Of a stretch of 64,000 nt of DNA, positions 2,706 to 59,218 are shown piece after piece; the stretch's first letter is position 1; each line of letters starts with the position of its first letter. This DNA is from Boswellia sacra. Its lineage: Eukaryota > Streptophyta > Magnoliopsida > Sapindales > Burseraceae. The notes under the pieces are model-generated. The model was not told where the DNA came from, did no database searches, and saw only the letters and a program-made list of their open reading frames with translations. The translations under genes were made by a program, and so were the position numbers. Location of the stretch: the NCBI GenBank assembly GCA_013180625.2, contig SNVD02009848.1, positions 1-64,000 on the forward strand, written 5' to 3'.

Positions 2706-3262
2706 ATGGATGCTGATATCTTTCTCTCGAACCTTCGTAAATCTTTCCCTTCACTTCCTCAAAATGCTGTGTTTAAAATTTATAAAGTACGGATGACTAG
2801 ACTTTGGGCATTGATGCTCCTAAATGTGCCTGTTGATATCCGATGGCTTATCGAAGCCAAGGTGAGATTGTTCGGTGAGCCGGACATTAATCTCGCAAAA
2901 TACCTGCCTGGTCTAGGAAAGAGCTACTACGCCAAGAGGCGAAGAGCGAAAAGGTTACAAGTATGTAATAAATGTGCTAGATGGAATTGTAACCAGACTT
3001 GTCGTTCATTAGGTTTTGCATCCAGGAATAGAGAAGATAAACTTTCATTTATTAAGAATGGTTTGAGTAATGAGTCGTTGGATAATGTTTTGTTTTAACT
3101 CTCGAGTCACATTCTTGTGGACTTGTTCAGCGTGAATTGCTTAATCTATGGACACAATTTTGTGATGAATTGCAATTTTATAGTCTAGGGAATCTGACTA
3201 AAAACGACCCTGTTTGCCAGTTTATAAGAAAACTGGATGGGAAGCAAATCCCCGACTCATAG
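2706..3262 (+). pseudogene. Virus-like basic Cys-rich protein (CRP), element A copy
   Basis: Starts at a Met-Asp-Ala codon run equivalent to the intact copy at 37710. It keeps the Leu-Pro-Gln-Asn segment, a basic patch (SYYAKRRRAKR) and the Cys cluster CNKCARWNCNQTC, which reads C-x2-C-x4-C-x3-C. A small insertion in a T run near 3092-3096 ends the frame at 3098; the C-terminal coding sequence continues in another frame to 3262. The layout (basic patch directly followed by a zinc-type Cys cluster in a small protein) resembles carlavirus nucleic-acid-binding proteins; this family assignment is my inference. It follows pol and precedes LOG, as in B and C. Confidence 0.65.
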
Positions 3263-3804: not shown

Positions 3805-4455
3805 ATGGAGAAAACACCAATTCGGCGATTCCGTAATATATGCGTATTTTGCGGATCGCAATTGGTAAAGATGGAGAGTTTACCACAGCAGCTCTTGATC
3901 TCGGTAGGACATTAGCTGCGAGGGGTATTAATTTGATTTATGGAGGGGGTAGTCTTGGGTTAATGGGGTGTGTGTCAACAACTGCATCCCTAGGAGGGAG
4001 CAAAGTTCTCGGCATTATCCCTAAACCATTAGCTGTACGAGATATCGTAGGCAAAACAATCGGGGAAGAGTTACAGGTCTCTAGTATGCATGAGCGTATT
4101 GCACATATGGTTGTTAAGTCCGATGCATTTATAGCTTTTCCTGGTGGTTATGGTACATTAGAGGATATATTTCAAATCACCTCTTGGGCACAGTTAAACA
4201 TCCATCGGAAACCCATTGGTTTGTTAAATGTTAATAATTTTTTTGATGGTTTGTTGTCCTTTCTTGATCAAGCTGTAGAAAAAAAATTTCATCTCACCGT
4301 CAGCAAGGCAAATGCTGGTTACAGCTTCAACTGCAGGAGAGTTAATTGACAAACTACAAGATTTCGTCTATTCACCTGATCCAACAATGGCTCGGATAAA
4401 TTGGTTTGGAGAAGGCAACAAAAGGCGTCAACTGGATTTAACCCTCCATCTGTAA
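3805..4455 (+). pseudogene. LOG-like cytokinin riboside 5'-monophosphate phosphoribohydrolase, element A copy
   Basis: LOG enzymes release free cytokinin bases from cytokinin nucleotides in the cytosol. This copy shows FCGSQ at the start, GGGSLGLMG, MHERIAHM and PGGYGTLED, all LOG-family landmarks. A one-base loss near 3862 puts the first 19 or so codons out of frame with the rest, and an extra A in the run near 4279-4286 shifts the last quarter, so it is broken. The C-terminal coding (INWFGEGNKRRQLDLTLHL when read in the correct frame) is recognisable up to 4455. The Lys that usually follows Arg in the MHxRK motif is Ile. It sits downstream of CRP inside the same retroelement. Confidence 0.85.
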
Positions 4456-6434: not shown

Positions 6435-7856
6435 TGATAGGTGTCTATTTATGTATTACTTTTATATCAATTCGTCCATGTTTCTTTGCTATATTCCTTG
6501 GTATTTTTATGTTTTTGTGTGGTTTTGATGTTTGTAGGAGTTTTGGAGCAACTTGCACAAAAATGGAGTAAAACCCTTCATTTTCACCTCTGCTAGTCAG
6601 TGATCTTCTCGGATTTAATTGTATTGATATACAATGAACCCGATGACATATTATATACCGTTGGAAAGCTCTCGAAGTCTATTTTCTGGAGAAATTTACG
6701 GTTTATAAATCCATTCAGTGTACCAAAGTTGTAATCAAAACAGTGTGAGAAGTGTAGAAATGTAATTCCACAATCACTGTAGCATGTATAATACGGGGCA
6801 CTGTAGCAAGTTACTGTAGCAGAGTATTTAAACACATTTTAGGGTTTTATTTTCATAACTTGAAGAGGGGGAAAACGTGGGAGGAGGCTGCATTTCTGGA
6901 TTTCTATCATCCCTTGGAGTTCTTGAAGGAGAAAGAAGATTTTGAAAGAGGAGGAACTACAATTCCAAGAAGATTCATCTACAAAGAAGATTTTCAAAGA
7001 ATTTGCTAAGTTCTTTCTTTCCTTTTCAATTCTGGAATTTCTCTGTATTGTATTTGTTATTCTGATTGAATATGTGTAACTAAATCTGAATTGGTTGAGG
7101 GTGATTTCAAAGCCCTTGATATGGATTTTGTGAGTTGATTGTGTAAGAAATTGTTATCCAATTCTCTAATTGAAGTTGCTTGTATTTTCCCATATCTAAT
7201 GCTTATGATTGCTTACTGATTGTATTTGGAATGGCCAACTGAATATAATCTGTTGTTGTCTATTGCTAGATTAGAAATCTTGATCCGTAATTGTCATGAA
7301 TTTCCAATCATTAGTAGCAAAATTGTGATCAGAGATTGCAATTGGAAAATACAACCTAGGTTAAATAATCCGAACTTGTGTGATTATTGCTTAGATCAAC
7401 CTATCTTTCTCATCGTAATGCTTCTATTGAATTAAACTTAGAGAGCTTGTTCTAGGTTGTTTAATGGATAGAGATTAAATAAAGAGCTTGTTTTATTTAA
7501 CAACAAAGTAAGGAAAGATTGGGATAACAGAGCTTGTTGTTTATCTACGGTTGATAACTTCAATGCTGTAATTGGATTACAATTCTATGTTAATTCACAA
7601 ATTCATATCTTGTGGCAGAGAAAGATCCCTTAACCAGTGTCTCTCATTGATCTTTCATTCAAATTAACTTCTGTTTTGTTATTCTTAATTTGCATTCTTA
7701 TTTCATTTAGTAAATCATTCAACAAAAATCCCCCCCATTTAGTTTATTGTTGCTGGAAATAACAAATTCAATTAGAATCAATCCTCGTGGGAAGGATACT
7801 TACTTATCACTTTATTACTTGTGCGACTAGTATACTTGCTAGTTTCGAACGCATCA
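6435..7856 (+). repeat. 3' LTR of element A (1,422 bp)
   Basis: Starts TGATAGGTG and ends GAACGCATCA. It aligns along its length with the LTRs of element C at 50005-51435 and 57811-59218. A TATTTAAA box lies at 6825-6832, just after three ACTGTAGCA motifs (near 6784, 6800 and 6813). It ends with the phrase CCTCGTGGGAA near the 3' border that recurs in gypsy LTRs of this window. Confidence 0.9.
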
Positions 7857-7862
7857 ATAAGT

Positions 7863-17521: not shown

Positions 17522-19052
17522 TGATGAACACTTAAATATGTATGTTTTATAAGAGTTTAATTCATCATATTGCACTAATAATGTCATTAAATTCTCCAAC
17601 TTAGCATATTTGTAGTCTTTACATCTTTGGAATTAATTTTCTCTTAATTTTGGTTTTGTTATAGGTTCGGTAAAATTAGCATAACTTTCTATTTATAGAT
17701 CAGAATGGTGCAAATCTTAATGTTTTGGAAATATGATCCAATTATCTACAAGATTATGCCTCATAGGCTTCATCAAATTCGGGCTTTAAATTGACCAAAA
17801 ATGGGCTTGAAATAAACCCATATGCAGTTTCAGCCCAGCCTGACCATGCTTCAGTATTTTAGGCATATCTCTCAAAATACGTATCCAAATCATCTGATTC
17901 AAAATTTTCTAGAAAGCTGAGACAAATATCTACAACTTTTATGCAGACATGTGATCAAAATTCTCAATAAATCATTGCCAAAATCTGTGGTCAAAGTCGG
18001 TGCCCCTAATGATCCCAATTGTCAAAGATTTTTACAACTAATATTTGACAATTGTACCCTTGTAATTTGACAAGTTTGCCCCTGGATGTATCTATAAATA
18101 GAGGTGCCTTGTAACCATTTGGATATCTTGGCTTTGGCTGGGATCTCTTGGCCTTGGCTAGGATCTTGTATTGTGTTTTGTGTGTTTATGTTATTAATGA
18201 ATTTCTTTTATAATTTATTTTCTTTCTTCTATTATGTCTTTCTAATTTCTCTCTTGCTAAGGTGAAAGGGTGAAACCCTTGATATGAGAATAAGGATTCT
18301 CCAACCCTTAGGTATGTACTTAATAATCATAATCTTTTGTTATTTATTTTATATGATTTATATTTCATTTCTTCATCAATCTTGACACCACGTGTAAAGT
18401 GGAGGTCTTGATCCATTGTCGACAATCCTTGGCACATCAAATGCTTGGATCTTTTCTAGACGTCGTATGATTCTTCCTTACCGATACAAGTCTAGTTAGG
18501 AACCTTGATTTGTTGTAGACATATGGTGATTGGCACATTGGATGCTTGAACCCATTTACAAGAAGTGGTATAAATATTGGTAACGAAACAAATATAATTC
18601 ATATAACTAAAATGGGTTGATTAATTATCCTTATTCGATATATCAAGGGCGGATCCCCTAACCTTAGCTCTTATTATTATTGTGTTAATTCCTCTTCTCT
18701 TACTTGTATTTTTATTACTTTCATTTATTGTTTATGACTTTGTTCCTTTAATTACTATGGAAGGTTTTACCTCCTAAATTCCCATGGTTGGTTTTACCAC
18801 CTAATTCTATGGATGGTTCTACCTCCTTTTGCTTTCTATTTTATATTTGAATAGTCGGTAATACCGCCTACCATCATTATATTTATTTGTTGATATTATC
18901 TCACCATCCTTTTGAATCATTCGTATCATATTTGCTTAACTTATAATTTGTAATGCTTAAATCTCCTTTCTCGTGGATCGACCCCGGTCTCACCGGGTTT
19001 ATTACTTCGACACTCCTATACTTGGGAGATAATCCTTTTTTTGGATGTGTTA
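17522..19052 (+). repeat. 5' LTR of G2 (1,531 bp)
   Basis: TGATGAACAC at the start; the end reads TGTGTTA where the 3' copy has TGTGTCA, a single change in the terminal CA. It closely matches 22758-24292. Confidence 0.93.
18093..18100 (+). promoter_or_regulatory. LTR TATA box
   Basis: TATAAATA followed by GAGGTGCC, the likely core promoter for G2 genomic RNA. The same box occurs in the 3' LTR at 23329-23336 and in the B LTR fragment at 36872-36879. Confidence 0.7.
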
Positions 19053-19058
19053 AGTTTT

Positions 19059-19076
19059 TGGCGCCGTTGCTGGGGA
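19059..19076 (+). other. Primer-binding site of G2 (tRNA-Asp)
   Basis: TGGCGCCGTTGCTGGGGA, complementary to the 3' end of plant tRNA-Asp with one mismatch, six bases after the LTR. Confidence 0.88.
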
Positions 19077-19281
19077 TGGTAAAATTTGGCGTACAAAATT
19101 GTAAGTATTTTCTTTTTCCATTTCTATTCTTCTTGTGTGTGATAATCTTTTCTCTCCCCATTTCTATTTTTATCTTTCTTGCATGTGCTCATCTTTTCTT
19201 TCTTTTTGCATTAGTTGGTAGAATTGTTTGTGACCACTCATTTTGTTTGAAAAACATACTCATACCTAACAAAGAACATTA

Positions 19282-20868
19282 ATGGATTACATAAGAACTT
19301 ATTCACAATCATGTAGAGTCTTCCCTCATGATGAAATATATTTCGATCATGAACCGGATTTCATTCAATTCTTACCCCACTTTCATGGCCTAGATGTTGA
19401 AAACCCATATTTACACTCGAGAGAATTTGAAGAGTTTTGTAACACATATTGTGACCTAAATTGTAGCATAAACATCTTTAAATTAAAGCTTTTTCCTTTT
19501 TCTCTAAAAGATAAAGCTAAAACTTGGCTACAAAATCTTAGGTCAAGATCCTTTAGTTCATGGGATGAAATGCAACAACAATTTCTTGAAAAATTCTTTC
19601 CTCCCTATAAAACAAATTCTCTCAAAAGAAAAATCGTCAGTTTCACTCAAAAACAAGGAGAGACTTTTTACCAATGTTGGGATAGGTATAAAGCATTGCT
19701 TAGTACTTGTCCCCATCATGGTTTGGAAACAGGGGAACTAGTTATGATTTTGTATGAAGGTCTTACACATCAAGATAGGCAAATGATAGAATTAATGTGT
19801 GATGAACAATTTCTAGATAAATACCCTGATGAAGCCATTGATTTCCTCGAACTTGAATCCCTAGCTAAAAAAATCGAGTATTTAGAAATGATATCTATAC
19901 AAAAAAATGTCTGTCACACTTGTAATTCTAGTGGTCATCCAACAGATGATTGCTCAAATGTGCCTAACTTTAGACAAAGTCTCCATGAACAAACCAATGC
20001 TTTAAACAATTTTCAAAGGTCAAATCCTAATCCTTGCTCACAAAAGTTTGGATGGAAAAATCACTTGAATTTTGATTGGAGGAATGATAATCAAGCACAA
20101 TCTTCACAAGTCCCTTTTCAAACACAACAAAATTTTCAAAATTCTCATGATCATGCTCCTCCTCCTAGAAATGACTTTGAAGACACAATGCATTCATTCA
20201 TTACAGAGCAAAAGATGTTCAATAGTCAAATGCATTCACTCATTACAAAGCAAGAGACTTTCACTAATCAAATTGCTCAAGCATTAACAAATTTATTAGA
20301 CACTCTTGCAAAATTTGCATCCACATGTAGCATCCAAGAGAAAGGTGAGTTTCCATCTCAACTGGAGCCAAACTCCATCAATCTATATGTGAGTAATCCA
20401 AGTAGCCAACATCTAGATGAAGATCCGGTAAGTGCTCTTCATGAAGATTCGGTAAGTACTCTTTATGATGGTGGGGTTGATCAAGAACACATTCCTAACC
20501 CTTATGAGAAAGATGATGAATCAATCTCAAAGGATAAGGAAGAGGTGAATAAACCTTCACCTAACAAGGAAAAGACTGAATCCTCACTTATGCCCTCATT
20601 TCATCATGCAAAGGAATTTAACCATGATTTTGATATTAATGAATTGTTTGAGCATGATAAAAATGAGGAAGCTAATAAGACTAAAATTAATGTGGAAGAC
20701 TATATCCAAAATGAGAAATTTTCAACTCCTTCAGAAATTGGGTTAACTAGTTCATTTGAACCAAGTATGCAACTAGTGCCCATTGCTTCTAAAGAATTTT
20801 TATTGCTTGAGTTTGTACAGGTGAAGGAGATTAAGAGTTGGGAGCCATGTTTCAAGAAAAGGCAGTAA
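19282..20868 (+). CDS. Intact gypsy gag protein, 528 aa
   Basis: Gag forms the particle that packages element RNA. The retrotransposon gag domain covers roughly residues 30-195 (FHGLDVENP, LFPFSLKDKAKTWL, WDEMQQQFLEKFFP, CPHHGLETGELV motifs). A single zinc knuckle, CHTCNSSGHPTDDC, lies at about residues 212-225. The C-terminal 300 residues are acidic and low in complexity. The frame is open from the Met at 19282, about 200 bases after the PBS. It is the only complete gag in the window and belongs to the element whose LTRs are nearly alike, consistent with recent mobility. No protease follows, which is unusual for an autonomous element. Confidence 0.92.
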   Translation: MDYIRTYSQSCRVFPHDEIYFDHEPDFIQFLPHFHGLDVENPYLHSREFEEFCNTYCDLNCSINIFKLKLFPFSLKDKAKTWLQNLRSRSFSSWDEMQQQFLEKFFPPYKTNSLKRKIVSFTQKQGETFYQCWDRYKALLSTCPHHGLETGELVMILYEGLTHQDRQMIELMCDEQFLDKYPDEAIDFLELESLAKKIEYLEMISIQKNVCHTCNSSGHPTDDCSNVPNFRQSLHEQTNALNNFQRSNPNPCSQKFGWKNHLNFDWRNDNQAQSSQVPFQTQQNFQNSHDHAPPPRNDFEDTMHSFITEQKMFNSQMHSLITKQETFTNQIAQALTNLLDTLAKFASTCSIQEKGEFPSQLEPNSINLYVSNPSSQHLDEDPVSALHEDSVSTLYDGGVDQEHIPNPYEKDDESISKDKEEVNKPSPNKEKTESSLMPSFHHAKEFNHDFDINELFEHDKNEEANKTKINVEDYIQNEKFSTPSEIGLTSSFEPSMQLVPIASKEFLLLEFVQVKEIKSWEPCFKKRQ

Positions 20869-21268
20869 AGAACATCCACACTCAAAAATGCATGCCTCAA
20901 GGACAAACAAACTCAACCAATGGTAATCTCGTTCATTCTCACAAATAAAGGAAAAAGAGAGGTACCACCCCAATGGCATATTTTTGATCGTGTTAAATTA
21001 ATTTCGAAGATATTTTTATTTTACCCTTTTAATCAAATTTTATTCGTTTGTGCTATATTTTCATTTTCATTTTTATTTTTATCACTTCTAGTTTGTTTTT
21101 ATTTTATGTACTTGTATTTTAGTTGTGTGCTTGTATTTTATTTTTTGATCAAGTGGCAGATACGGTACTCCGTGGCTTTTTATGTCGTTTTTTTTTAGTT
21201 TCCTAAAAACTGTTGCTCACCTTGCATTCATTTCCTTTTCTTTTCTCTCATTTTTTTTTCATAGTCTT
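20869..21268 (+). other. Noncoding segment of G2 after gag
   Basis: Matches 37326-37705 of element B (ACAAACAA, GGAAAAAG and the TACGGTACTCCGTG phrase). The CRP N-terminal coding present in B is missing here; the sequence passes at about 21258 straight into the CRP 3' end. Confidence 0.6.
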
Positions 21269-21406
21269 GGGAATCTGACTCTAAACAACCCTGTTTGCCT
21301 GTTTATAAGAAAACTGGATGGGAAGCATATCCCCAACTCATAGAAGGTGTTTAAGCCGTTTCTGGACGTAAAACCAGAGGAAGATGTGAGCCACAGTCAC
21401 AACTAC
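21269..21406 (+). promoter_or_regulatory. Conserved putative RNA element, copy G2
   Basis: Near-identical to 38184-38321 and 3188-3325. Here most of CRP and all of LOG have been lost, yet this segment is retained, with the CRP stop region and the CTGG/CCAG hairpin. Confidence 0.6.
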
Positions 21407-21440
21407 CTATGCATATGCATGTGTGCCATCAAATTTCTTA

Positions 21441-22757
21441 TCTTTTATTTTATTTGTAGCATTTTATTTTATGAGTCTTTCAGGTCATCTCTCTTAAATA
21501 ACAGCAGCTTCAGGTAATATCTCCTATACTTTATCTCTCTACATTTAAACATTGATGACAATGTTTCATTTGGTTAGGGGGGAAGGATAGTAGACATAAG
21601 TGTGTCTTTAATTTTCTTTTTCTTGCATTAAAAAAAAAGCGAGTTAGTAATTAGATTCAGAGTGCGGTGTAAGGAGTTCAAATCCTCTTGAGACGCATTC
21701 TGGGTCAGGAATGGTAGAGTAAAGAGGGCTAGTTTGAACTCTAGAAACCCATTCTAATCAATTTGTCATTTTGTTTTGATTTTGCACTTTAGAAAACTCA
21801 TATTATTTAGTCTTGATTTTTGAATTTTATAGCAAGGAGGTCTTATTCATTTCACTTTGAATTATTCAAATCTATGAACTCTCACAACCTTATCATTTAA
21901 TAAACTGTGTGCTTATGTACTCGATAAACAAGTGTTCACAACTTTTCTTCACACACACACATACCTTGATACATGATTGTGGGTGGCGAAATGGAATGTT
22001 GTAATATTTGAGTTCTTTTTGTCTTGTTTAGGATAACAACAAAAGGAAGGGGAAAGTTCAAAAAAAAAAGTGAAAACAAAGAAGAAAAAAAAAAGCAATT
22101 GTGGATAAGTTTGGTCTCGTAGCCTCCTTAATTCGAGCAATTAAGCCCGAGGGGTGCCTCAACACCTAATACCCTAAGACCAACTGGTTTGGGAGTTATT
22201 GGCTCAAAGCTCGTTACATGGATTAAGGAGAAAGCTTAATGGGATCGAACATTGCACTATCCATAAGTTCAAAGCAAAAATAAAACATCTACAACCCGAG
22301 TCGTTAAGCTCGTAGGGGTGTCTTAACACCTAATGCCCTAAGGCCAACTGGTCTGGGACTCATTAGCCTAAGGCTCGCTATATGGGTTAAAGATGCATTC
22401 TTTCAAAAAAAAAAGAGAAAAAAAAGAAAAAAAGTTATTATATATAAATAAAAATGAATGCCCCTACCTAATGTTATTAGCCTTAACGAATATTGGAACC
22501 GATATGGCTTCTTTCCAATAAGCCCCATAGTCATGCGTCAACTGAACACAAAAAGAAGGTTTGTTGATATCTTGATTAAAAGGTACATGAGTCATAAAAA
22601 AATAATAAAAAATTAAAAATCTATTGAGAGTTTGTTTATTTGGATAAAATCAAAGAGAGTATAATAATTGACCACCTTGGATGTAAAATTTTATAAATCA
22701 CTTCTAAATAATAACGCTTTCATTGCTAGGGACTAGCAATAAGCTGATTGGGGGGTG
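21441..22757 (+). other. 3' noncoding tract of G2
   Basis: Corresponds to 39245-40557 of B and, reversed, 25388-26680 of G1. It contains the ACATTG/CAATGT hairpin at 21549-21564, a GGGGGGAAGG tract near 21577, the GAGACGCATTCTGG motif, and two diverged copies of a segment holding GGTG...ACACC hairpins at 22153-22166 and 22317-22330 (164 bases apart). The final GGGGGGTG tract abuts the LTR. No gene. Confidence 0.65.
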
Positions 22758-24292
22758 TGATGAACACTTAAATATGTATGTTTTTATAAGAGTTTAATTC
22801 ATCATATTGCACTAATAATGTCATTAAATTCTCCAACTTAGCATATTTGTAGTCTTTACATCTTTGGAATTAATTTTCTCTTAATTTTGGTTTTGTTATA
22901 GGTTTGGTAAAATGGGCATAACTTTCTATTTATAGATCAGAATGTGCAAATCTTAATGTTTTGGAAAGCTGATCCAATTATCTACAAGATTGTGTCTCAT
23001 AGGCTTCATCAAATTCGGGCTTTAAATGGACTAAAAATGGGCTTGAAGTAAACCCATATGTAGTTTCGGTGTAGCCTGACTATGCTTCAGTATTTTGGGC
23101 ATATCTCTCAAAATACGTATCCAAATCATCTGATTCAAAATGTTCTAGAAAGCTGAGACAAATATATACAACTTTCATGAAGACATGTGATCAAAATTCT
23201 CAATAAATCATTGCCAAAATCGGTGGTCAAAGTTGGTGCCCCTAATGATCCCAATTGTCAAAGATTTTTACAAATAATATTTGACAATTGTACCCTTGTA
23301 ATTTGACAAGTTTGCCCCTGGATGTATCTATAAATAGAGGTGCCTTGTAACCATTTGGATATCTTGGCTTTGGCTGGGATCTCTTGGCCTTGGCTAGGAT
23401 CTTGTATTGTGTTTTGTGTGTTTATGTTATTAATGAATTTGCTTTTTTTATAATTTATTTTCTTTCTTCTATTATGTCTTTCTAATTTCTCTCTTGCTAA
23501 GGTGAAAAGGTGAAACCCTTGATATGAGAATAAGGATTCTCCAACCCTTAGGTATGTACTTAATAATCATAATCTTTTGTTATTTATTTTATATGATTTA
23601 TATTTCTTTTCTTCATCAATCTTGACACCACGAGTAAAGTAGAGGTCTTGATCCATTATCGACAATCCTTGGCACATCAAATGCTTGGATCCTTTCTAGA
23701 CGTCGTATGGTTCTTCCTTACCGACACAAGTCTAGTTAGGAACCTTGATTTGTTGTAGACATATGGTGATTGGCACATTGGATGCTTGAACCCATTTACA
23801 AGAAGTGGTATAAATATTAGTAACGAAACAAATATAATTCATATAACTAAAATGGGTTGGTTAATTATCCTTATTCGATATATCAAGGGCGGATCCCCTA
23901 ACCTTAGCTCTTATTATTATTGTGTTAATTCCTCTTCTCTTACTTGTATTTTTATTACTTTCATTTATTGTTTATGACTTTGTTCCTTTAATTACTATGG
24001 AAGGTTTTACCTCCTAAATTCCCATGGTTGGTTTTACCACCTAATTCTATGGATGGTTCTACCTCCTTTTGCTTTCTATTTTATATTTGAATAGTCGGTA
24101 ATACCGCCTACCATCATTATATTTATTTGTTGATATTATCTCACCATCCTTTTGAATCATTCGTATCATATTTGCTTAACTTATAATTTGTAACGCTTAA
24201 ATCTCCTTCCTCGTGGATCGACCCCGGTCTCACCGGGTTTATTACTTCGACACTCCTATACTTGGGAGATAATCCTTTTTTTGGATGTGTCA
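22758..24292 (+). repeat. 3' LTR of G2 (1,535 bp)
   Basis: TGATGAACAC to GGATGTGTCA, followed directly by the GGTAT duplication. Confidence 0.94.
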
Positions 24293-32028: not shown

Positions 32029-33481
32029 ATCTGACACAGATTCATCTCTTGATGCTGGAGTTGATGATTTAATTTTCTTCTTCTTCTTCTGCTCACATGG
32101 TTTCTTCACCACTTCAACTGTCTTCTTTCCCTTCCTTGTAGTTCCCTTTGTAGGAGACTTAATTGTCTTTTCCTTTTACTTTTCTTCTACTGTTATGTCT
32201 ATCTTAACAGTAGTTTGTGTAGCTTGACCTGCTACAGGCATTTGGTCAGCTTTTTCAGGTAGTGGTTCATCAGCCTCAGGAATCGCCTCAGTTGGTTTCT
32301 CGAGAATCACAATGTCAAGCTCCATGGGTTGTGGCTCTATTGTAGTACCAGGATCCTACAAACTTTGCTTCTAAAACAGATTGCTTGAGTTTAATTTCCT
32401 TCAAATCCTACACAATTTCTGTCAAAGCAAAGTTGATCAGTACAAGCTATTCTTCAACAATTTTCATCTGATTTTTCCTGACTCTCTTTGGCTTCAGTTC
32501 AGGTGTAGGTAAGTCAGATTTGTCATGCAATATGTGAAGAAATCCCTTTGTAATGGATTGAGACAGAATTTCTGTCTGTTCATTAGAACTTATAGGGATG
32601 TTGATCTGTGCAAGAATCCCTTGAATCAAACAGGGAAACACAAGCAAGTGATAATCAGAGTGATATGATCCAATCTGTACAATTGATCTATAGGCTAGGA
32701 AACCAAAGTTAATTGGTCGATTGGTGCCTAAACAAAATAGAAGTTTCACTCTATCTTTCTGAACCTGATTTTGATGGGAAGAAGGAAGCCAATTAAACCG
32801 AGCTATCTTATGCAACACTCGATATTTCTTCCTAAGGTATTGTTGGTTTGTACCATCTTTCGATTCCCAAACAATGTTAATTCTATCAGTCAATTCCTTT
32901 ATCACTTCAACCATGTTATACTCTTCATCTAATGCATGCAAATTGCCTATGGGAATGTTGAGAAAAGTGTTTATAACATTTAGAGAGAATTTAAGAAACT
33001 TTCCTCTACAATAGACTTTGTGATAATAAAAGTTGTTAGGATCATCAATGGCAGTAGTGATATTGGCATAACATTCCTGAATTAAAGCCTTCACAGGGGG
33101 TAGGAAGTTTGTTACTGTACGAGTCCAGTAAATAGACTCAATCATCTCACTCAGGACATAGGTGTTGAAATCTGACAGTTTCACCGACCTTTCCATCTGC
33201 AGATTCCTTTTAGAAGTGTACTTCATGAACTTCTGCTTGATAGCCGCTGTTAAGAATTTGTCGTACTTCGACTTGACTTTATCTTTTATCTTCATCACCA
33301 ATACTTTCTCATCCTCACTGATGGTAGGATCGACAGCGATCTCTGCATGTGCTTGTTGCGTCAGAGATGACTGAATGATGTTACTCTTGTTGTAATTGGA
33401 GACGCTTTGAGAAGATGAAGAACTGGTGGATTTTGCAGATCTGAAGTCGTTGACATTGTTAGGATTTGTAGTCTGCAACAA
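32029..33481 (-). pseudogene. N-terminal part of env-position ORF (copia-2)
   Basis: The open part 33481-32447 begins with a Ser-rich stretch, then a domain containing MIESIYWTRTV, VYCRGKFLKFSLNVINTFLNIP and LHKIARFNWLPSSHQNQ, which resembles the plant transposon protein family known as Transposase_32. A stop at 32447 precedes a Lys/Glu-rich continuation down to 32029, where G1 begins. In SIRE-type copia elements a third ORF in this place has been called env-like; I see no clear membrane segment. Confidence 0.72.
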
Positions 33482-36300: not shown

Positions 36301-37325
36301 TGATTAACACTTTAATATGTATGTTTTATAAGAGTTTAATTCATCATATTACACTAATAATGTCATTAAATGCTCCAACTTAGCATATTTGTAGTCTTTG
36401 CATCTTTGGAATTAATTTTCTCTTAATTTTGGTTTTGTTATAGGTTTGGTAAAATGGGCATAACTTTCTATTTATAGATCAGAATGGTGCAAATATTAAT
36501 GTTTTGGAAAGCGGATCCAATTATCTACAAGATTGTGTCTCATAGGCTTCATCAAATTCGGGCTCTAAATGGACCAAAAATGGGCTTGAAGTAAACCCAT
36601 ATGCAGTTTCGGCCCAGCCCGACCATGCTTCAGTATTTTGGACATATCTCTCAAAATACGTATCCAAATCGTCTGATTCAAAATGTTCTAGAAGGATGAG
36701 ACAAATATCTACAACTTTCATGAAGACATGTGATCAAAATGCTCAATAAATCATTGCCAAAATCGGTGGTCAAAGTCGGTGCCCCTAATGATCCCAATTT
36801 TCAAAGATTTTTACAACTAATATTTGACAATTGTGCCCTTGTAATTTGACAAGTTTGCCCCCAGATATATCTATAAATAGAGGTGCCTTGTAACCATTTG
36901 GACATCTTGGCTTTGGCTGAGATCTCTTGGCCTTGGCTAGGATCTTGTATTGTGTTTTGTGTGTTTATGTTATTAATGAATTTGCTTTCTTTTATAATTT
37001 ATTTTCTTTCTTCTATTATGTCTTTCTAATTTCTCTCTTGCTAAAGTGAAAGGGTGAAATCCTTGATATGAGAATAAGGATTCTCCAACCCTTAGGTATG
37101 TACTTAATAATCATAATCTTTTGTTATTTATTTTATATGATTTATATTTCTTTTCTTCATCAATCTTGACACCATTTGTAAAGTGGAGGTCTTGATCCAT
37201 TGTCGTCAATCCTTGGCACATCAAATGCTTGGATCCTTTCTAGACGTCGTATGGTTCTTCCTTACCGACACAAGTCTAGTTAGGAACCTTGATTTATTGT
37301 AGACATATGGTGATTGGCACATTGT
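36301..37325 (+). repeat. 5' LTR fragment of B (1,025 bp)
   Basis: Matches the first two thirds of the G2 LTR, including the TATAAATA box at 36872-36879, and ends after GGCACATTG, where the full LTR would go on with GATGCTTG. The end of the LTR and the PBS are lost. Confidence 0.88.
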
Positions 37326-37709: not shown

Positions 37710-38258
37710 ATGGATGCCATTCTCTCAAAATTGCATAAACATTTTCCCTCTCTTCCTCAAAATGATTTGCTTAAAATTTACAAGGCTCGCATAGCAAGAC
37801 TAAGGATGTTGATGTGCAAGGGCATTCCTATTGATGTAAGATGGTTAATTGAAGCCAAGGTTAGATTTTCTTGTGAATTTTCAGATAATCTTGTTTCTCA
37901 CATGCCAGGTTTGGGAAAAAGCTCTTACGCCAAAAAGCGAAGAGCGAAAAGGTTACAAGTTTGTCACAAATGTGCACGATGGACTTGTAACCAACGTTGC
38001 CGCTCCTTGGGATATGCGTCTAACAATCGAGAGGATAAATTACAGTTCATTAAGAATGGACTGAGTAGGGAGTCTTTGGATGATATCCGAGTGACTCTCG
38101 AGACGCATTCTTGTGGACTTGTGCAACGTGAAATCTTGAATTTGTGGACACAATTCCGAGATGAGCAGGAACGTTATAGTCTTGGGAATCTGACTCAAAA
38201 CAACTCTGTTTGCCAGTTTATAAGAAAACTAGATGGGAAGCATATCCCCAACTCATAG
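37710..38258 (+). CDS. Virus-like basic Cys-rich protein (CRP), intact, 182 aa
   Basis: Start chosen at Met-Asp-Ala, the start shared with the A and C copies; an in-frame Met exists 16 codons upstream. Residues 1-66 form a conserved N-terminal part. Residues 69-81 read GKSSYAKKRRAKR, a strongly basic patch that could bind RNA or act as a nuclear signal. Cys 85, 88, 93 and 97 form C-x2-C-x4-C-x3-C, a likely zinc site; this is not the CCHC gag knuckle. Residues 125-182 are unlike anything I recognise and overlap the conserved RNA element. Small size plus basic patch plus Cys cluster resemble carlavirus nucleic-acid-binding CRPs, some of which suppress silencing or act in the nucleus. That relation is inference and needs a profile search. 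Confidence 0.72.
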   Translation: MDAILSKLHKHFPSLPQNDLLKIYKARIARLRMLMCKGIPIDVRWLIEAKVRFSCEFSDNLVSHMPGLGKSSYAKKRRAKRLQVCHKCARWTCNQRCRSLGYASNNREDKLQFIKNGLSRESLDDIRVTLETHSCGLVQREILNLWTQFRDEQERYSLGNLTQNNSVCQFIRKLDGKHIPNS

Positions 38259-38321
38259 AAGGTGTTTAAGCCGTTTCTGGACGTAAAACCAGAGGAAGAT
38301 GTGAGCCACAGTCACAACTAC
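38184..38321 (+). promoter_or_regulatory. Conserved putative RNA element, copy B
   Basis: Overlaps the last 75 bases of CRP and 63 bases beyond its stop. About 93% identical by eye to the A copy although A and B belong to different LTR families. It holds the CCAGTTT hairpin (one mismatch here) and CTGG/CCAG. Confidence 0.6.
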
Positions 38322-38527
38322 CTGTACATATGCATGCGTGCCATTATTTTTGAATTTTAATGCCTTATAGCTATCATTTTTGAATTCGTATCTTTTCTTT
38401 GACTTGTGCATTTATAGTATCTTATTTCATCATTTCTTTTGAATTTCTATGCATTATTGTCAAATTTTTCAACAAGTAGCCGAGCTACCTATTTAGATGT
38501 CATCATTAGCATACCTTTTTGCACTCC

Positions 38528-38535
38528 ATAAATAC
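38528..38535 (+). promoter_or_regulatory. TATA-like box upstream of LOG (B)
   Basis: ATAAATAC about 50 bases before the LOG start, followed by a CT-rich leader (CTCTTGTTCTCTTCTTC), an arrangement usual for plant core promoters. Confidence 0.4.
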
Positions 38536-38583
38536 CACATCTCTTGTTCTCTTCTTCACACATAGTTAGAAAGTTGCATAGAC

Positions 38584-39234
38584 ATGGAGGGAACTTCAAA
38601 ACATCGAATCCAAAGGATATATGTATTATGTAGATCTCGACCAGGTAAAAGTGAAGAGTTTGTGGAAGTAGCAAATTATCTTGGTAGGCTACTGGCTGAA
38701 AGAAAGATTCATGTGGTTTATGGGGGAGGTAGCCTCGGGTTAATGGGTTGTGTGTCAACAACTGCACATGTAGGAGGTACCCAAGTTTTAGGAGTTATTC
38801 CTAAAGCCTTGGCTGTAGAAAACATTGTTGGAAAAACGGTTGGGAAAGAGTTACAAGTCTCCTCTATGCACGAACGCATGGCACATATGCTTATTAATTC
38901 AGATGCTTTTATTGCTTTACCAGGTGGCTTTGGTACTCTTGAAGAAATTTTTCAAATTGCCAATTGGGCCCAACTGAATCTCCATCGAAAACCCATAGGT
39001 TTGTTGAATGTTAAAAATTTCTTTGATCCTTTGATAAGTTTTGTTGATGCAGCTGTGGAACAAAATTTTATCGCTCATTCGGCGAGAAAGATCCTTGTTT
39101 CTGCCACTATTGCTAGTAAACTACTTGACAAGTTACAAGCATTCGAGTATGAACCTGATCCAGCCATAACTCAAATCAATTGGTTAGGAGAACAAAACAA
39201 AAAGCGTAGATTGGATCTGAATCTCAGTTTGTAA
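38584..39234 (+). CDS. LOG-like cytokinin riboside 5'-monophosphate phosphoribohydrolase, intact, 216 aa
   Basis: LOG enzymes convert cytokinin nucleotides to active free bases. Length is normal for the family. Seen landmarks: YGGGSLGLMG at residues 46-55, MHERM at 95-99, PGGFGTLEE at 113-121 and the WAQLNLHRKPIGLLNV stretch at 128-143. The Arg and the Glu of the active site are kept (R98, E121). Two departures: the Lys that normally follows that Arg is Met99, and the N-terminal nucleotide-binding FCGSS is LCRSR (15-19). Activity may therefore be altered. Lies 325 bases after CRP in an element without gag or pol. A host gene caught by a retroelement is the likely origin. Confidence 0.88.
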   Translation: MEGTSKHRIQRIYVLCRSRPGKSEEFVEVANYLGRLLAERKIHVVYGGGSLGLMGCVSTTAHVGGTQVLGVIPKALAVENIVGKTVGKELQVSSMHERMAHMLINSDAFIALPGGFGTLEEIFQIANWAQLNLHRKPIGLLNVKNFFDPLISFVDAAVEQNFIAHSARKILVSATIASKLLDKLQAFEYEPDPAITQINWLGEQNKKRRLDLNLSL

Positions 39235-40557: not shown

Positions 40558-41566
40558 TGATGAACACTTAAATATGTATGTTTTATAAGAGTTTAATTCA
40601 TCATATTGCACTAATAATGTCATTAAATTCTCCAACTTAGCATATTTGTAGTCTTTGCATCTTTGGAATTAATTTTCTCTTAATTTTGGTTTTGTTATAG
40701 GTTCCGTAAAATGGGCATAACTTTCTATTTATAGATCAGAATGGTGCAAATCTTAATGTTTTGGAAATCTGATCCAATTATCTACAAGATTGTGTCTGAT
40801 AGGCTTCATCAAATTCGGGCTCTAAATGGACCAAATATGGGCTTGAAGTAAACCCATATGCAGTTTCGGCCTAGCCTGACCATGCTTTAGTATTTTAGGC
40901 ATATCTCTCAAAATACATATCCAAATCATCTGATTCAAAATGTTCTAGAAAGATAAGACAAATATCTATAACTTTCATTAAGACATGTGATCAAAATTCT
41001 CAATAAATCATTGTCAAAATTGGTGGTCAAAGTCGGTGCCCCTAATGATCCCAATTGTCAAAGATTTTTACAACTAATATTTGACAATTGTACCCTTGTA
41101 ATTTGACAAGTTTGCCCCTGGATGTATCTATAAATAGAGGTGCCTTGTAACCATTTGGACATCTTGGCTTTGGCTGAGATCTCTTGGCCGTGGCTAGGAT
41201 CTTGTATTGTGTTTTGTGTGTTTATGTTATTAATGAATTTGCTTTCTTTTATAATTTATTTTCTTTCTTCTATTATGTCTTTCTAATTTCTCTCTTGCTA
41301 AGGTGAAAGGGAGAAACCCTTGATATGAGAATAAGGATTCTCCAACCCTTAGGTATGTACTTAATAATCATAATCTTTTGTTATTTATTTTATATGATTT
41401 ATATTTCTTTTCTTCATCAATCTTGACACCACTTGTAAAGTGGAGGTCTTGATCCATTGTCGACAATCCTTGGCACATCAAATGCTTGGATTCTTTCTAG
41501 AAGTCGTATGGTTCTTCCTTACCGTCACAAGTCTAGTTAGGAACCTTGATTTGTTGTAGACATATG
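40558..41566 (+). repeat. 3' LTR fragment of B (1,009 bp)
   Basis: TGATGAACAC start; cut after GACATATG by copia-E. Remaining third of the LTR not found on the other side of copia-E. Confidence 0.88.
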
Positions 41567-43206
41567 TGTTGACCCAGGTATGACAACCCAAGAGGGGGGG
41601 TGAATTGGGTTTTATTTATCAAAACGAATTTATAAAACTTTTCTTGAAAGATAAAAATTATTTCACTTTTTCTTTTGAGAATAGAAGTGAAGAAGATGAA
41701 AATAGAAGTTGTCTAAGATGCAATCAAGAGAATAGCAATAATAAATAATCTCAAGTGCAAGTAAATGTAAAGAGATAGGGATAGAGAGAGTGCAAACTCA
41801 ATTTACGTGGTTCGGCAAACCTTGCCTACGTCCACGGGCTCCTAGCTCCTCCACAAGCTAGGCTTTCCACTAAGTTGTAGAATACTTTACAACTTGCTTG
41901 ATGAACAACTTCACCAAGACTTTTTTTCTTCAACTCTTGATAACACCACACCAAGAGTTCTTCTTGATGAACAACCTCACCACTGTCTCTTATACACATC
42001 TAGATGTGTATAAGAGACAGATCTCACTCTCACCACAATACAAGAACAAAGATAATTTTTACAACAAAGTATAACTCTCTTCAAAGAGTAGATAAAGAAT
42101 ATAAAAGCTCTCTAGACTTGATATTTCTCTTGTTTTTTGCTTGATAGATGCTTCTCTTGCACTTGCTTGAATGCATGGGAGAATGGCTCCTTTTATAGGC
42201 AAATGAGATGAACTTAATCAAGTGAAGACACCAACTCCAAATTTTCTGCCCACCATAAAAAACCGTAATTTTGTCTGCCATTTTTGTCAATGTTCCGTTT
42301 GAAATTTGAAAATCTGTAAAACATAAAAGATCTGCACATTTGAATAAGCTTTCCAACGCATTAAGAACCAAGTCATTTAGATATCTGTAGCTCAAGATAT
42401 GGCCAAAACACCATTTGGTGCTCATGTGACTTGATTTTTCTTTCTTGTGTCAGTCCACCAAATTGAATGATAATTCTGTCAGCCTTTCGTTTGAAATTTG
42501 AATTTCTTCAAACATAAAAGATTTGCATATTTGAATAAGCTTTCCAAAACATTAAGAATCAAAGCATTTGGATATCTCTATCTTAAGATATGGCCAAAAA
42601 ACCATTCGGTGCTCATGTGAGTTGATTTTTTTCTCTGTGTCAGTCCACCGAATTGCATGTCAATTATGCCAGCCTTCTGTTTGAAATTTGAATTTTTTCA
42701 AGACATATGAAATGTTCTTCATTAAGTCATCTTTCCAATGCCGCAAGAATTAAGTCATTTTGATTTTTCTAGCTCAAGATATGTCCAAAGGAGTATTCGG
42801 TGCTCATGTCAGATGCTTCCATTTGTCTTTCAACTTGCATGATAATTTGGACAACCTTGCACTTGAAATTTGAATTTCATTAAAACATATGAAATGTTAT
42901 AAATTGAGTAATCTTTCCAAAGGCTAAAGAATCACGTCATTTGGATATTTGTAGAGATATATATGACCAATTGATTGAACATTGCTCATGTGTCACATTC
43001 CTTGAGTCAATCCTTGTTCTTAAACTTTGGTGCCTTTAAAATGTAGTCTTCTCCTTAGCTTCAACACTTCATTTTAATAAGCCTCTTCTTGATTTTAAAA
43101 TTATTTCAATGATCTTACTCTTGCACATAAATAAACATGTTAGTAAATCTCAATTAATCAATGTGTATTGTTATCATCAAATTATCATGTAGCCTTAGGG
43201 CTAACA
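41567..43206 (-). repeat. 3' LTR of copia-E (1,640 bp)
   Basis: Plus-strand ends TGTTGACCC and GGGCTAACA. Matches 46943-48590 except for the foreign 38 bp at 41983-42020. Contains three or four diverged internal copies of a segment with GTTTGAAATTTGAA and GATATGGCCAA. Confidence 0.9.
41983..42020. other. Tn5 mosaic-end palindrome (Nextera mate-pair junction adapter)
   Basis: CTGTCTCTTATACACATCT followed directly by its exact reverse complement. These are two 19-bp Tn5 mosaic ends back to back, the known Nextera mate-pair circularisation junction. It replaces about 44 bp present in the other LTR (near 47356-47399). Confidence 0.95.
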
Positions 43207-43540
43207 ATCTCCCCCTTTTTGATGATGACAAACCATTGATTGCTTTAAAATATAATCTAAATCAAGAATGAAAATAAAATCAACAATAAGCAAAAAGAAT
43301 AGCACTTGTTATGAATATAAGCAATCCAACTATTTCTCCCCCTTTTGTTATCATCAAAAAGATGTAGTCAAATTAATTACTTCCCTTAAATATATTCTCT
43401 CCTTTAACATATGCTACCATTTAAAGATTATCATATAAAAGAAAAATTAAGACATATCCAACATAACTACTTTTCTTCTAATTATGCAAGATCTATCTTG
43501 ACTAAGGGGTTTAGTCATATTTGGGTCCAGGGACTAAGTC
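43207..43540 (-). other. Polypurine tract and remnant noncoding segment of copia-E
   Basis: Minus-strand AAAAAGGGGGAGAT abuts the LTR at 43207-43220. A second GGGGGAGA tract is near 43337-43347. No RT or RNase H coding is present in this gap. Confidence 0.75.
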
Positions 43541-50004: not shown

Positions 50005-51435
50005 TGATAAGTGTCTATTTGTATATCATTTTCATATCAATTCGTCCATGTTTCGTTGCTATATTCCTTGGTATTTTCATGTTTTTGTGTGATTTTGATG
50101 TTTGTAGGAGTTTTGGAGCAACTTGCACAAAAATGGAGTAAACCCTTCATTTTCACCTCTGCTAGTCAACCATCTTCTCGGATTTAATTGTATTGATATA
50201 CAATGAACCCGATGACTTATCATATACCGTTGAAAAGCTCTCGAAGTCTGCTTTTTGGAGAAATTTACGGTTTATGAATCCATTCAGTGTATCGAAAGTT
50301 GTAATCAAAACAGTGTGAGAAGTGTAGAAATGTAATTCCACACATCACTGTAGCATGTATAATACAGGACACTGTAGCATGTTACTGTAGCAGAGTATTT
50401 AAACACATTTTAGGGTTTTATTTTCATAACTTGAGGAGGAGAGAACGTGGAGGAGGCTGCATCTTTGGATTTCTCTCATCCCTTGGAGTTCTTGAAGGAG
50501 AAAGAAGGCTTGAAAAGAGGAAGAACTACAATCCTAAGGAGATTCATCTACAAAGGAGATTTTCAAAGGATTTGCTAAGTTTTTCTTTTCCTTTTCATTT
50601 CTGGAATTTCTCTGTATTGTATTTATGTTGTTCTTAAACATGTAACTGAATCTGAATTGGTTGAGGGTGATTTCAAAGCCCTGGATATGGTTTTTGTAAG
50701 TTGATTGTGCAAGAAGTTGTTATTCAATTCTCTAATTGAAGTTGCTTGTATTTTCCCATATCTAATGCTTATGATTGCTTGCTGGATTGTATTTCGAATG
50801 GCTAATTGAATATAATCTGGTTGTTGTCTATTGCTAGACTAGAAATCTTGATCCGTAATTGTCTTGAATTTCTAATCCTTAGTAGCAAAATTGTGATCAG
50901 AGATTGCAATTGGAGAATACAACCTAAGTTAAATAATCCGAGCTTGTGTGTTTATTGCTTAGATCAACCTATCTTTCTTATCGTAATGCATCCATTGAAT
51001 TAAATTTAGAGAGCTTGTTCTAGGTTGTTTAATGGATAGAGATTAAATAAAGAGCCTGTTTTATTTAACAACAAAGTAAGGAAAGATTGGGATAAACAGA
51101 GCTTGTTGTTATCTACGGTTGATAATTTCAATGGTGTAATTGGATGATAATTCTACAATTAATTCGCAAATCCATATCTTGTGGTGGAGAATGATCTCTT
51201 AACCAGATTTCTATCATTGATTAATTCCCATTTCAATTAAGTTTGCATTGTGTTATTCATTAATTACCGTCGTATTCAGTTTTTCATCTAGTTAATCAAC
51301 CAACAAAATCCCCCATTTAGTTAATTGTTGCTGGAAATAACAAATTCAATTAGACTCAATCCTCGTGGGAACGATATCTTACTTATCACTTTATTACTTG
51401 TGCGACTAGTATACTTGCTAGTTTCGAACGCATCA
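50005..51435 (+). repeat. 5' LTR of C (1,431 bp)
   Basis: TGATAAGTG to GAACGCATCA. Three ACTGTAGCA motifs at 50347, 50371 and 50384 precede a TATTTAAA box at 50396-50403. Confidence 0.93.
50396..50403 (+). promoter_or_regulatory. LTR TATA-like box with upstream ACTGTAGCA array (C)
   Basis: TATTTAAA four bases after the last ACTGTAGCA motif. The set is kept in the A LTR and in the 3' LTR of C (near 58155-58210), pointing to promoter use. Confidence 0.55.
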
Positions 51436-54015: not shown

Positions 54016-54568
54016 ATGGATGCTGATATCTTCTATCGAACCTTCGTAAATATTTCCCTTCACTTCCTCAAAATGCTGTGTTTAAAATTTATAAAGTACG
54101 GATGACTAGACGTTGGGCGTTGATGCTCCTAAATGTGCCTGCTGATATCCGATGGCTATCGAAGCCAAGGTGAGATTGTCCGGTGAGCCGGACATTAATC
54201 TCGCAAAATACATGCCGGGTCTTGGAAAGAGCTACTACGCCAAGAGGCGAAGAGCGAAAAGGTTACAAGTATGTTATAAATGTGCTAGATGAAATTGTAA
54301 CCAGACTTGTCGTTCATTAGGTTTTGCGTCCAGGAATAGAGAAGATAAACTTTCATTTATTAAGAATGGTTTGAATAATGAGTCGCTGGATAATGTTTTG
54401 TTAACTCTCGAGTCACATTCTTGTGGACTTGTCCAGCGTGAATTGCTTAATCTATGGACACAATTTCGTGATGAATTGCAGTGTTATAGTCTAGGGAATC
54501 TGACTAAAAACGACCCTGTTTGCCAGTTTATAAGAAAACTGGATGGGAAGTAAATCCCCGACTCATAG
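54016..54568 (+). pseudogene. Virus-like Cys-rich protein (CRP), element C copy
   Basis: Same start as in A. Single-base losses near 54034 and 54156, a Trp-to-stop change within the Cys cluster (near 54290) and a stop near 54549 make it non-coding. The basic patch and Cys codons are still readable. Confidence 0.65.
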
Positions 54569-55183: not shown

Positions 55184-55835
55184 ATGGAGAAAGCACCAAT
55201 TCGGCGATTCCAAAATATATGCGTATTTTGTGGATCGCAATTTGGAAAAGATGGAGAGTTAACAACAGCAGCTCTTGATCTTGGTAGGACATTAGCTGCG
55301 AGGGGTATTCATTTGATTTGTGGAGGGGGTTAGTCTTGGGTTAATGGGGTGTGTGTCGACAGCTGCATCCCTAGGAGGGAGCAAAGTACTCGGCATTATC
55401 CCTAAACCATTAGCTATGCGAGATATCGTAGGCAACACAATCGGGGAAGAGTTACAAGTCTCTAGCATGCATGAGCGTATTGCACATATGATTGTCAAGT
55501 CTGATGCATTTATAGCTTTACCCGGTGGTTATGGCACATTAGAGGAGATATTTCAAATCACCTCTTGGGTACAGCTAAACATCCATAAAAAACCCATTGG
55601 TTTGTTAAATGTCAATAACTTTTTGGATGGTTTGTTGTCCTTTCTTGATCAAGCTGTAGAAAAAAATTTCATCTCACCGTCAGCAAGGCAAATGCTGGTT
55701 ACAGCTTCAACTGCAGGAGAGTTAATTGACAAACTACAAGAATTCGTCGATTCACCTGATCCAACAATGGCTCGGATAAATTGGTTTGGAGAAGGCAACA
55801 AAAGGCGTCAACTGGATTTAACCCTCCATCTGTAA
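55184..55835 (+). pseudogene. LOG-like enzyme, element C copy, one frameshift
   Basis: Opens with the FCGSQFGKDG stretch and runs in frame to the glycine-rich motif, where one extra T (near 55330) brings a stop. The second part, from there to 55835, is fully open with MHERIAHM, PGGYGTLEE, and the IHKKPIGLLNV stretch. Only a single lesion separates it from a full-length gene, fewer than in copy A. The Lys after the catalytic Arg is Ile, as in A. Confidence 0.87.
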
Positions 55836-57810: not shown

Positions 57811-59218
57811 TGATAAGTGTCTATTTATATATCATTTTCATATCAATTCGTCCATGTTTCTTTGCTATATTCCTTGGTATTTTTATGTTTTTGTGTGGTT
57901 TTGATGTTTGTAGGAGTTTTGGAGCAACTTGCACAAAAATGGAGTAAAACCCTTCATTTTCACCTCTGCTAGTCAACCATCTTCTCGGATTTAATTGTAT
58001 TGATATACAATGAACCCGATGACATATCATATACCGTTGAAAAGCTCTCGAAGTCTACTTTTTGGAGAAATTTACGGTTTATGAATCCATTCAGTGTACC
58101 GAAAGTTGTAATCAAAACAGTGTGAGAAGTGTAGAAATGTAATTCCACACATCACTGTAGCATGTATAATACGGGACACTGTAGCACGTTACTGTAGCAG
58201 AGTATTTAAACACATTTTAGGGTTTTATTTTCATAACTTGAAGAGGGGAGAACGTGGAGGAGGCTGCATCTTTGGATTTCTCTCATCTCTTGGAGTTCTT
58301 GAAGGAGATTGAAGGCTTGAAAAGAGGAAGAACAACAAAACCTAAGAGATTTCATCAAATTTGCTAAGTTTTCCCTTTCCCTTTCATTTTCTGGAATGAC
58401 TCCATATTGTATTGTATTTGTTTTGTGTCTGAATATGTGTAACTAAATCTGAATTGGTTGAGGGTGATTTCAAAGCCCCTGATATGGTTTTTGTAAGTTG
58501 ATTGTGCAAGAGTTGTTATCCAATTCTCTAATTGAAGTTGCTTGTATTTTCCCATATCTAATGCTTATGATTGCTTGCTGGATTGTATTTGAGTGGCCAA
58601 CTGAATATAATCTGGTTTGTCTATTGCTAGACTAGAAATCTTGATCCGTAATTGTCTTGAATTTCTAATCATTAGTAGCAAAATTGTGATCAGAGATTGC
58701 AATTGGAGAATACAACCTAAGTTAAATAATCCGAGCTTGTGTGTTTATTGCTTAGATCAACCTATCTTTCTTATCATAATGCATCCATTGAATTAAACTT
58801 TAGAGAGCTTGTTCTAGGTTGTTTAATGGATAGAGATTAAATAAAGAGCTTGTTTTATTTAACAACAAAGTAAGGAAAGATTGGGATAACAGAGCTTGTT
58901 GTTATCTACGGTTGATAACTTCAATGCTGTAATTGGATTACAATTCTATGTTAATTCACAAATTCATATCTTGTGGCAGAGAAAGAACCCTTAACCAAGT
59001 GTCTCTCATTGATCTTTCATTCAAATTAACTTCTGTTTTGTTATTCTTAATTTGCATTCTTATTTCATTTAGTTAATCAATCAACAAAACCCCCCCTGTT
59101 TAGTTTATTATTGCTGGAAAATAACAAATTCAATTAGAATCAATCCTCGTGGGAACGATATCTACTTATCACTTTATTACTTGTGCGACTAGTATACTTG
59201 CTAGTTTTGAACGCATCA
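57811..59218 (+). repeat. 3' LTR of C (1,408 bp)
   Basis: TGATAAGTG to GAACGCATCA, preceded by the polypurine tract. Noticeably different from the 5' LTR at many positions, so C is not recent. Confidence 0.92.

Follow-up and report, generated by a model that had tools for sequence, protein, structure and literature searches.

The window analysed here, the 64-kb stretch covering positions 1 to 64,000 of contig SNVD02009848.1 of Boswellia sacra, consists of nested gypsy and copia elements, and two extra genes recur in it side by side, one encoding a Cys-rich protein (CRP) and the other a LONELY GUY-family protein (LOG) that ends in a basic tail with an LxLxL motif. Two diverged Ty3/gypsy families have this CRP-LOG pair as a fixed module, and both genes of the pair are under purifying selection, with a ratio of nonsynonymous to synonymous divergence (dN/dS) well below 1. 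The reading that we favour, tentatively, is that the pair may constitute a co-inherited and selected cassette for manipulation of the host, placed between gag/pol and the 3' long terminal repeat (LTR); within it, the predicted tasks of LOG are to release cytokinin and to dock TOPLESS, and those of CRP to bind nucleic acid and to dampen silencing or change transcription. The observations behind it are the position, order, spacing and copy number of the two genes, their profile matches, the active-site residues, the tail and the low dN/dS.

The original prediction had described three copies of the module (A, B and C), in two LTR families and always with CRP followed by LOG. This is borne out by the open reading frames (ORFs), by tblastn and by self-comparison of the window, and in copy B both genes are open, as had been claimed:

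37710..38258, plus strand: CRP gene of copy B, an open ORF of 182 amino acids (aa)
38584..39234, plus strand: LOG gene of copy B, an uninterrupted open ORF of 216 aa
39199..39231, plus strand: C-terminal tail of LOG in copy B, KKRRLDLNLSL, a basic patch plus an LxLxL motif of the EAR (ethylene-responsive element binding factor-associated amphiphilic repression) type

Motif searches of the whole 638.6-Mb genome, allowing up to 2 mismatches, counted 1757 places for the B-type LOG, 1916 for the B-type CRP and 4904 for the A/C-type LOG, with 0 for each reversed-pattern control; the first 100 places of each were listed. The exact LOG motif lies 969-1046 bases downstream and on the same strand in 45 of the 100 listed places with an exact CRP motif, where 0.03 would be expected, this being a lower bound that leaves mismatched partners uncounted and draws its partners from 78 LOG places, those listed for the contig range concerned. 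No other arrangement of the two motifs within 3 kb was found around the same 100 CRP places. Inspection by eye of the best 150 CRP and the best 150 LOG matches gave 19 pairs, all on the same strand and with starts 861-874 bases apart. In loci sampled by the CRP motif alone, namely the first 8 of its list, both genes appear in order in 8/8. For the A/C-type family, CRP-like sequence precedes LOG in 11 of the 12 fetched loci, and the fetched sequence of the twelfth, L037, starts only ~0.76 kb before LOG.

Selection was assessed by pairwise counts. The sets are biased: LOG copies were admitted for their score and an open frame, and CRP copies irrespective of their CRP score but with frameshifted ones excluded. 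The B-type CRP set comprised copy B and 10 copies aligning over their full length without a frameshift (L006 being left out for frameshift misalignment), and the A/C-type set those 4 among the 12 fetched loci whose CRP aligns as a single piece. With copy B as the reference, the ratio of the proportions of nonsynonymous and synonymous differences (pN/pS) is 0.30-0.80 in the 23 LOG comparisons and 0.26-0.81 in the 10 CRP comparisons. One-pair binomial tests against neutrality give 4.9e-4 for LOG and 9.6e-5 for CRP. Sums within families amount to 0.29 (B-type) and 0.20 (A/C-type) for LOG, and to 0.36 and 0.37, respectively, for CRP. Between families, in the comparison across copies that the original prediction had proposed as a check, dN/dS is 0.28-0.31 for LOG (pS 0.49-0.52; 7 comparisons) and 0.24-0.26 for CRP (pS 0.51-0.53; 4 comparisons). 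Taking into account that pS is nearly equal in CRP and LOG, the two genes have therefore travelled together since before the families split.

Both genes have relatives in other eudicots. The plants named for CRP relatives among the matches listed are Xanthoceras, Acer, Populus, Rhamnella, Orobanche, Parasponia and Striga; the Rhamnella gene model P0090 consists of CRP followed by LOG, and model P0063 of an integrase C-terminus followed by CRP. Two further couples of CRP and LOG matches, P0003 with P0125 and P0041 with P0141, come from equal-sized contigs (8723 and 2128 bases) and probably share one contig each. The pair is thus confined neither to one locus nor to one species: the 45/100 motif pairing, the eudicot relatives and P0090 answer the concern, voiced in the original prediction, that it might be found only at this locus and its recent copies.

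LOG matches PF03641 at 6.9e-38 (130.2 bits against a cut-off of 27) and TIGR00730 with 160.5 bits (cut-off 96.35), and it stays below the cut-off of the NCBI equivalog NF058542 (106.6 against 300 bits), a model that serves the naming of prokaryote proteins. Its closest solved structures, by sequence and by fold, are AtLOG3 (2a33) and AtLOG8 (1ydh), with which it shares the fold (the LOG model has a predicted local distance difference test score, pLDDT, of 84.6) and the active-site motifs, identity to AtLOG3 being about 46-59%. The active-site arginine and glutamate, corresponding to R102 and E124 of AtLOG3, which we take to be the catalytic residues, are present together with PGGFGT in 24/24 genome copies; among the listed public relatives, the arginine is retained in 113/120 and the glutamate in 114/120. 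Judged from profiles, structure match and active-site residues, LOG is a LONELY GUY-family protein in which these residues are retained, in agreement with the identity first proposed for it. LOG proteins are described as regulators of cytokinin activity (PMC9289625). Enzymes of this family release active cytokinin from its riboside 5'-monophosphate. A tree of 38 rows sets AtLOG3 and AtLOG8, the sole two host LOGs included, apart from the 36 others with a support of 100/100. Three Xanthoceras models in that tree (P0121, P0122 and P0206) have two LOG-like domains and no LxLxL tail, and fall outside the other 33 relatives.

The homology with AtLOG3 ends at residue 200 of LOG, and what LOG adds past this point is the basic-LxLxL tail. 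In B it reads KKRRLDLNLSL; most A/C-type copies have KRRQLDLTLHL or KRRKLDLTLHL there, so that the LxLxL form of the EAR motif occurs in both families of the genome. A survey of 120 listed public relatives (P0121-P0240, of 7924 matches) found LxLxL within the last 12 residues in 98/120 and basic residues ahead of it within the last 20 also in 98/120, against 15 of the 23443 other windows of these proteins. The 22 exceptions comprise the three long Xanthoceras models, ends that are shortened or have one leucine altered, and a handful of unusual ones; plants named among the tail bearers are Diplodiscus, Reevesia, Melia, Populus and Paulownia. In 49 hand-picked, mostly full-length rows, L212 and L214 are invariant (49/49), as is L216 in the 48/48 rows that have a letter there. 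Residues 202-216 are predicted to be disordered, with a pLDDT below 50 (about 40), and a motif disordered in the model and yet invariant looks like a binding peptide. Judging from the end of the AtLOG3 alignment, host LOGs, which are not known to have such an ending, probably lack this tail. LxLxL EAR motifs are described as recruiting TOPLESS corepressors (PMC10942257).

It might be proposed that the LOG fold chiefly serves to carry the tail and that the protein acts as a nuclear corepressor decoy or recruiter, with cytokinin release being secondary. The tail leucines are indeed among the most conserved positions in spite of the disorder, and an EAR motif is reported to be used against TOPLESS by a fungal effector (PMC7748000). 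However, the active-site residues have also been kept, in all genome copies and in the proportions given above for public relatives, and we regard this explanation as unlikely.

CRP of copy B contains a basic patch, KKRRAK, at residues 75-80, followed by the cluster C85-x2-C88-x4-C93-x3-C97. It matches two viral profiles of Pfam, Viral_NABP (PF05515; 9.3e-9, 36 bits against a cut-off of 23), named for viral nucleic-acid-binding proteins (NABPs), and Carla_C4 (PF01623; 2.7e-6, 27.7 bits against 20.9); neither was matched by 5 shuffles and 1 reversal of the protein, and the two were matched at E <= 0.01 by 59 and 61 of 68 picked CRP relatives. A genome search with Carla_C4 returned at least 150 matches over the cut-off (150 of 6750 candidates were scored, and all pass), and 0/14 control genomes were positive. 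The residues of the patch, K75-K80, are each kept in 108-120 of 121 relatives and the cysteines in 113/120 (C85), 119/121 (C88 and C93) and 115/121 (C97), with the C-x2-C-x4-C-x3-C spacing present in 105/121. CRP thus resembles the flexivirus CRP/NABP proteins in its profile matches and in the basic patch beside a cysteine cluster, and is unlike them in being encoded by a retrotransposon and in having N- and C-terminal extras outside the best match (36-121 of 182). Protein searches with CRP, of which the best 120 of 313 and, using a short core alignment to admit short viral proteins, the best 120 of 562 matches were listed, named no virus species among those matches; most of them are nameless, and the labels 'Viral nucleic acid binding' sit on plant or unnamed records. 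A scan of IMG/VR for CRP relatives found none. Viral CRPs are described as silencing suppressors (PMC12172455; PMC8839810), and the chrysanthemum virus B protein is said to be a transcription factor that induces hyperplasia (PMC12172455).

The LTRs of the window fall, by self-comparison, into two families, one of ~1.43 kb in A and C and one of ~1.53 kb in B and in a further element, E1. The remaining features are the following:

36301..37324, plus strand: truncated 5' LTR piece of copy B (self-comparison), abutting the stretch upstream of CRP
40558..41566, plus strand: 3' LTR of copy B, sharing 96.0% identity with the 5' piece and breaking off at the copia start
2715..3259, plus strand: CRP of copy A, broken (tblastn: a frameshift and one stop)
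about 3843..4452, plus strand: LOG of copy A, broken (tblastn, two frames)
6435..7857, plus strand: 3' LTR of copy A, matching the C LTRs
50005..51435, plus strand: 5' LTR of copy C (self-comparison), with the primer-binding site (PBS) next, at 51442
about 54030..54565, plus strand: CRP of copy C, broken (tblastn: stops and a frameshift)
about 55184..55832, plus strand: LOG of copy C, broken (tblastn, two frames)
57811..59218, plus strand: 3' LTR of copy C (self-comparison)
17522..24292, plus strand: E1, of B's LTR family, LTR-gag-(CRP 3' end)-LTR, with LTRs 97.2% identical

Copies A and C have the same CRP-LOG order as B, and frameshifts or stops break both genes in each of them. E1 has a gag ORF and is flanked by a target-site duplication of 5 bp, GGTAT, its ends having been read by eye. 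A copia-type element on the minus strand (41567-48590), with a pair of LTR-like ends 92% identical, starts where the 3' LTR of B breaks off, and self-comparison of the window found no remainder of this LTR beyond it. Elsewhere, a 282-aa ORF of no recognised kind (32447-33295, minus strand), possibly a further accessory gene of an element, is located inside a repeat that recurs inverted near 61-62 kb (60744-62287), next to an ORF of 151 aa with many Pro, Glu and Lys residues.

The carrier elements were followed through 20 genomic stretches of at most 10 kb each, ending at LOG copies and chosen from the best 150 LOG matches, a sample biased to well-kept copies because they were picked for a stop-free LOG and room on the contig. 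The order LTR-gag-pol-CRP-LOG was seen in 6/20, including L017, which has integrase (INT) without a reverse transcriptase (RT) match, and L019, whose CRP is degenerate. The original prediction had placed the module of copy B between pol and the 3' LTR; this needs correcting, as B has no pol, and it is in these six loci that the order is seen. LTR-gag-CRP-LOG without pol was found in 8/20, and the retention of both genes where pol was lost speaks for the cassette. One locus has an INT-CRP-LOG cut by a contig end, another a LOG alone, and the last four are considered below. In three copies fetched with their downstream side, the LTR pairs are 95.1, 95.6 and 98.7% identical, with TG...CA LTRs and 5-bp duplications. 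A PBS-like TGGCGCCGTTGCCGGGGA or a near form of it was located by pattern in 16/20 upstream loci, and also in E1 and C; it may be of the Athila tRNA-Asp type. Among the traits of Athila-type Ty3/gypsy elements, gag, RT before INT, forward 3' extra ORFs, long LTRs and 5-bp duplications are all found.

Several pol-less loci (L010, L011, L012, L015, L018, L021, L023, L025 and L009, L020, L022, L028) have the same LTR family and LOG, and in gag they stand closer to E1 than the pol-bearing copies do; such copies resemble non-autonomous partners that share LTRs and 3' region with an autonomous element. In the pol-less L032 (112-2724), gag and CRP form a single 870-aa open frame through a T-rich linker, probably by chance loss of stops. 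CRP as a part of the gag polyprotein was considered and rejected, since other copies do not code through the T-rich stretch that forms the L032 linker. Immediately before the LOG start codon (38515-38583 in the window; also in L003 and L009-L028) there is a TATA-like [CT]ATAAATACC, with letters identical in 20 of the 22 copies shown, and then a pyrimidine-rich stretch ending in CACATAG; LOG might have an internal promoter or a splice acceptor here.

A number of observations weigh against the cassette reading. In the eight motif-sampled loci, CRP is unbroken in 0/8 and LOG in 2/8. Close pairs are weakly constrained, pN/pS reaching 0.80 in LOG and 0.81 in CRP, with the highest values in the closest relatives, as would be expected of decay following insertion. 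Copy B is without PBS, gag and pol, which were lost, since its 5' LTR piece joins directly to the sequence preceding CRP. In E1, CRP is reduced to its 3' end and LOG is missing, the element having inserted without the module, and four of the 20 fetched loci have the form LTR-gag-(final 27-44 CRP codons)-LOG. Because E1 and these truncated forms exist, the module is dispensable in cis, and therefore any benefit from it would be exerted in trans or at the level of the lineage. The broken genes and the insertion of E1 speak for a rival explanation, in which CRP and LOG would be functionless passengers, a viral fragment and a captured host gene hitch-hiking in the element. Nevertheless, the between-family dN/dS of 0.24-0.31, the conservation in other eudicots and the open copies in the score-selected lists stand against this explanation, which was rejected on dN/dS and appears very improbable.

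The four loci with LOG and no full CRP, besides showing that LOG can persist alone, bear on another proposal, in which CRP would be the working part and serve the element's own RNA, as a silencing suppressor or RNA chaperone, and LOG a separate, ordinary cytokinin enzyme, the two sharing a place and no programme. In favour of it, the viral homologues of CRP are described as silencing suppressors and nucleic-acid binders (PMC12172455). The fixed order and spacing and the equal synonymous divergence fit a kept pair instead, and an LxLxL tail is unexpected on a plain enzyme; thus, we think this proposal rather unlikely.

Other points that weigh against the cassette concern the two proteins themselves. 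In LOG of copy B, R replaces the G of the CGS loop, as in 3/24 copies. Searches for host LOGs with pieces of AtLOG3 showed, among the 150 matches listed, copies 57-62% identical and no clear host exon. The AlphaFold model of CRP is weak (pLDDT 65.2), and Foldseek against viral models gave no match at E <= 0.001; the best 14 rows, non-significant and from this weak model, comprise 11 named flexivirus small proteins (NABPs, silencing suppressors and others) and 3 unnamed ones. Finally, the cysteine spacing of CRP differs from the C-x2-C-x12-C-x4-C quoted for the carlavirus jasmine virus C (PMC8839810). Of the carlavirus-CRP resemblance originally put forward, the part that stands is the match to Viral_NABP and Carla_C4 over their cut-offs; the spacing is unlike the quoted carlavirus one, so that strict membership among carlavirus CRPs was rejected, and on its profile matches we would call CRP a homologue of the viral NABP family and not a carlavirus CRP.

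If the cassette reading is nonetheless correct, LOG would be an active enzyme that raises active cytokinin in the host and, having entered the host nucleus, would engage TOPLESS-type corepressors through its LxLxL tail. CRP would bind nucleic acid, and thus dampen silencing or alter host transcription. The benefit to the element would be that more cells divide, or are less silenced, along the lineage giving rise to the next generation. An action on cell division or silencing had been suggested in the original prediction and may apply; the LOG tail, the pol-less carriers and the evidence for selection go beyond it. A bolder version can be proposed, in which the module would amount to a pathogen-like effector programme, with a nuclear, EAR-tagged cytokinin-activating enzyme both producing active hormone and seizing TOPLESS, and a silencing-suppressing zinc protein shared with flexiviruses, expanding and de-silencing the inheriting stem-cell lineage, and with the CRP gene traded between plant RNA viruses and elements. 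This version we hold to be doubtful. The findings as such also lead one to ask whether plant RNA viruses and retrotransposons have exchanged genes.

With regard to known systems, Steinbauerova reportedly described two Athila-like elements with similarity to LOGL4 in 2011. In agreement with this, a YgdH/LOG domain is reported for the gypsy consensus sequences from Populus and from two species of Citrus (PMC9289625); these elements share a LOG-family ORF with those described here, and Populus is also among the tail-bearing matches. The section of that article on the Citrus and Populus elements names no viral NABP domain, CRP, pair or basic-LxLxL tail (PMC9289625), and no report of CRP, of the CRP-LOG pair or of the LOG tail in such elements was found in the literature searched, which covered few subscription papers. 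Thus, LOG in gypsy elements has already been published, and CRP, the pair and the tail appear to be new. It is also suggested that some LOGL10 genes in databases, in poplar, are transposon genes.

The extra ORFs of plant gypsy elements are mostly without known conserved domains (PMC9289625), and their function is hard to test for this reason. Here, one extra ORF is a hormone-enzyme homologue with a corepressor-type motif and the other is linked by profile to viral silencing suppressors, both being selected and present in thousands of copies. An orchid gypsy element with an AlkB RNA demethylase (PMC9289625) likewise has a fixed extra ORF with a host-type enzyme domain; it differs in the enzyme, in having a single extra gene and in that its activity was shown in vitro, LOG being known here from sequence. 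The effector Jsi1 of Ustilago maydis (PMC7748000) is likewise a foreign EAR-type protein in the plant, its motif being DLNxxP in place of LxLxL, whereas LOG is a retrotransposon enzyme homologue whose binding is predicted. If the predicted functions are true, transposons would act in hormone and corepressor biology, following an effector logic otherwise known from pathogens.

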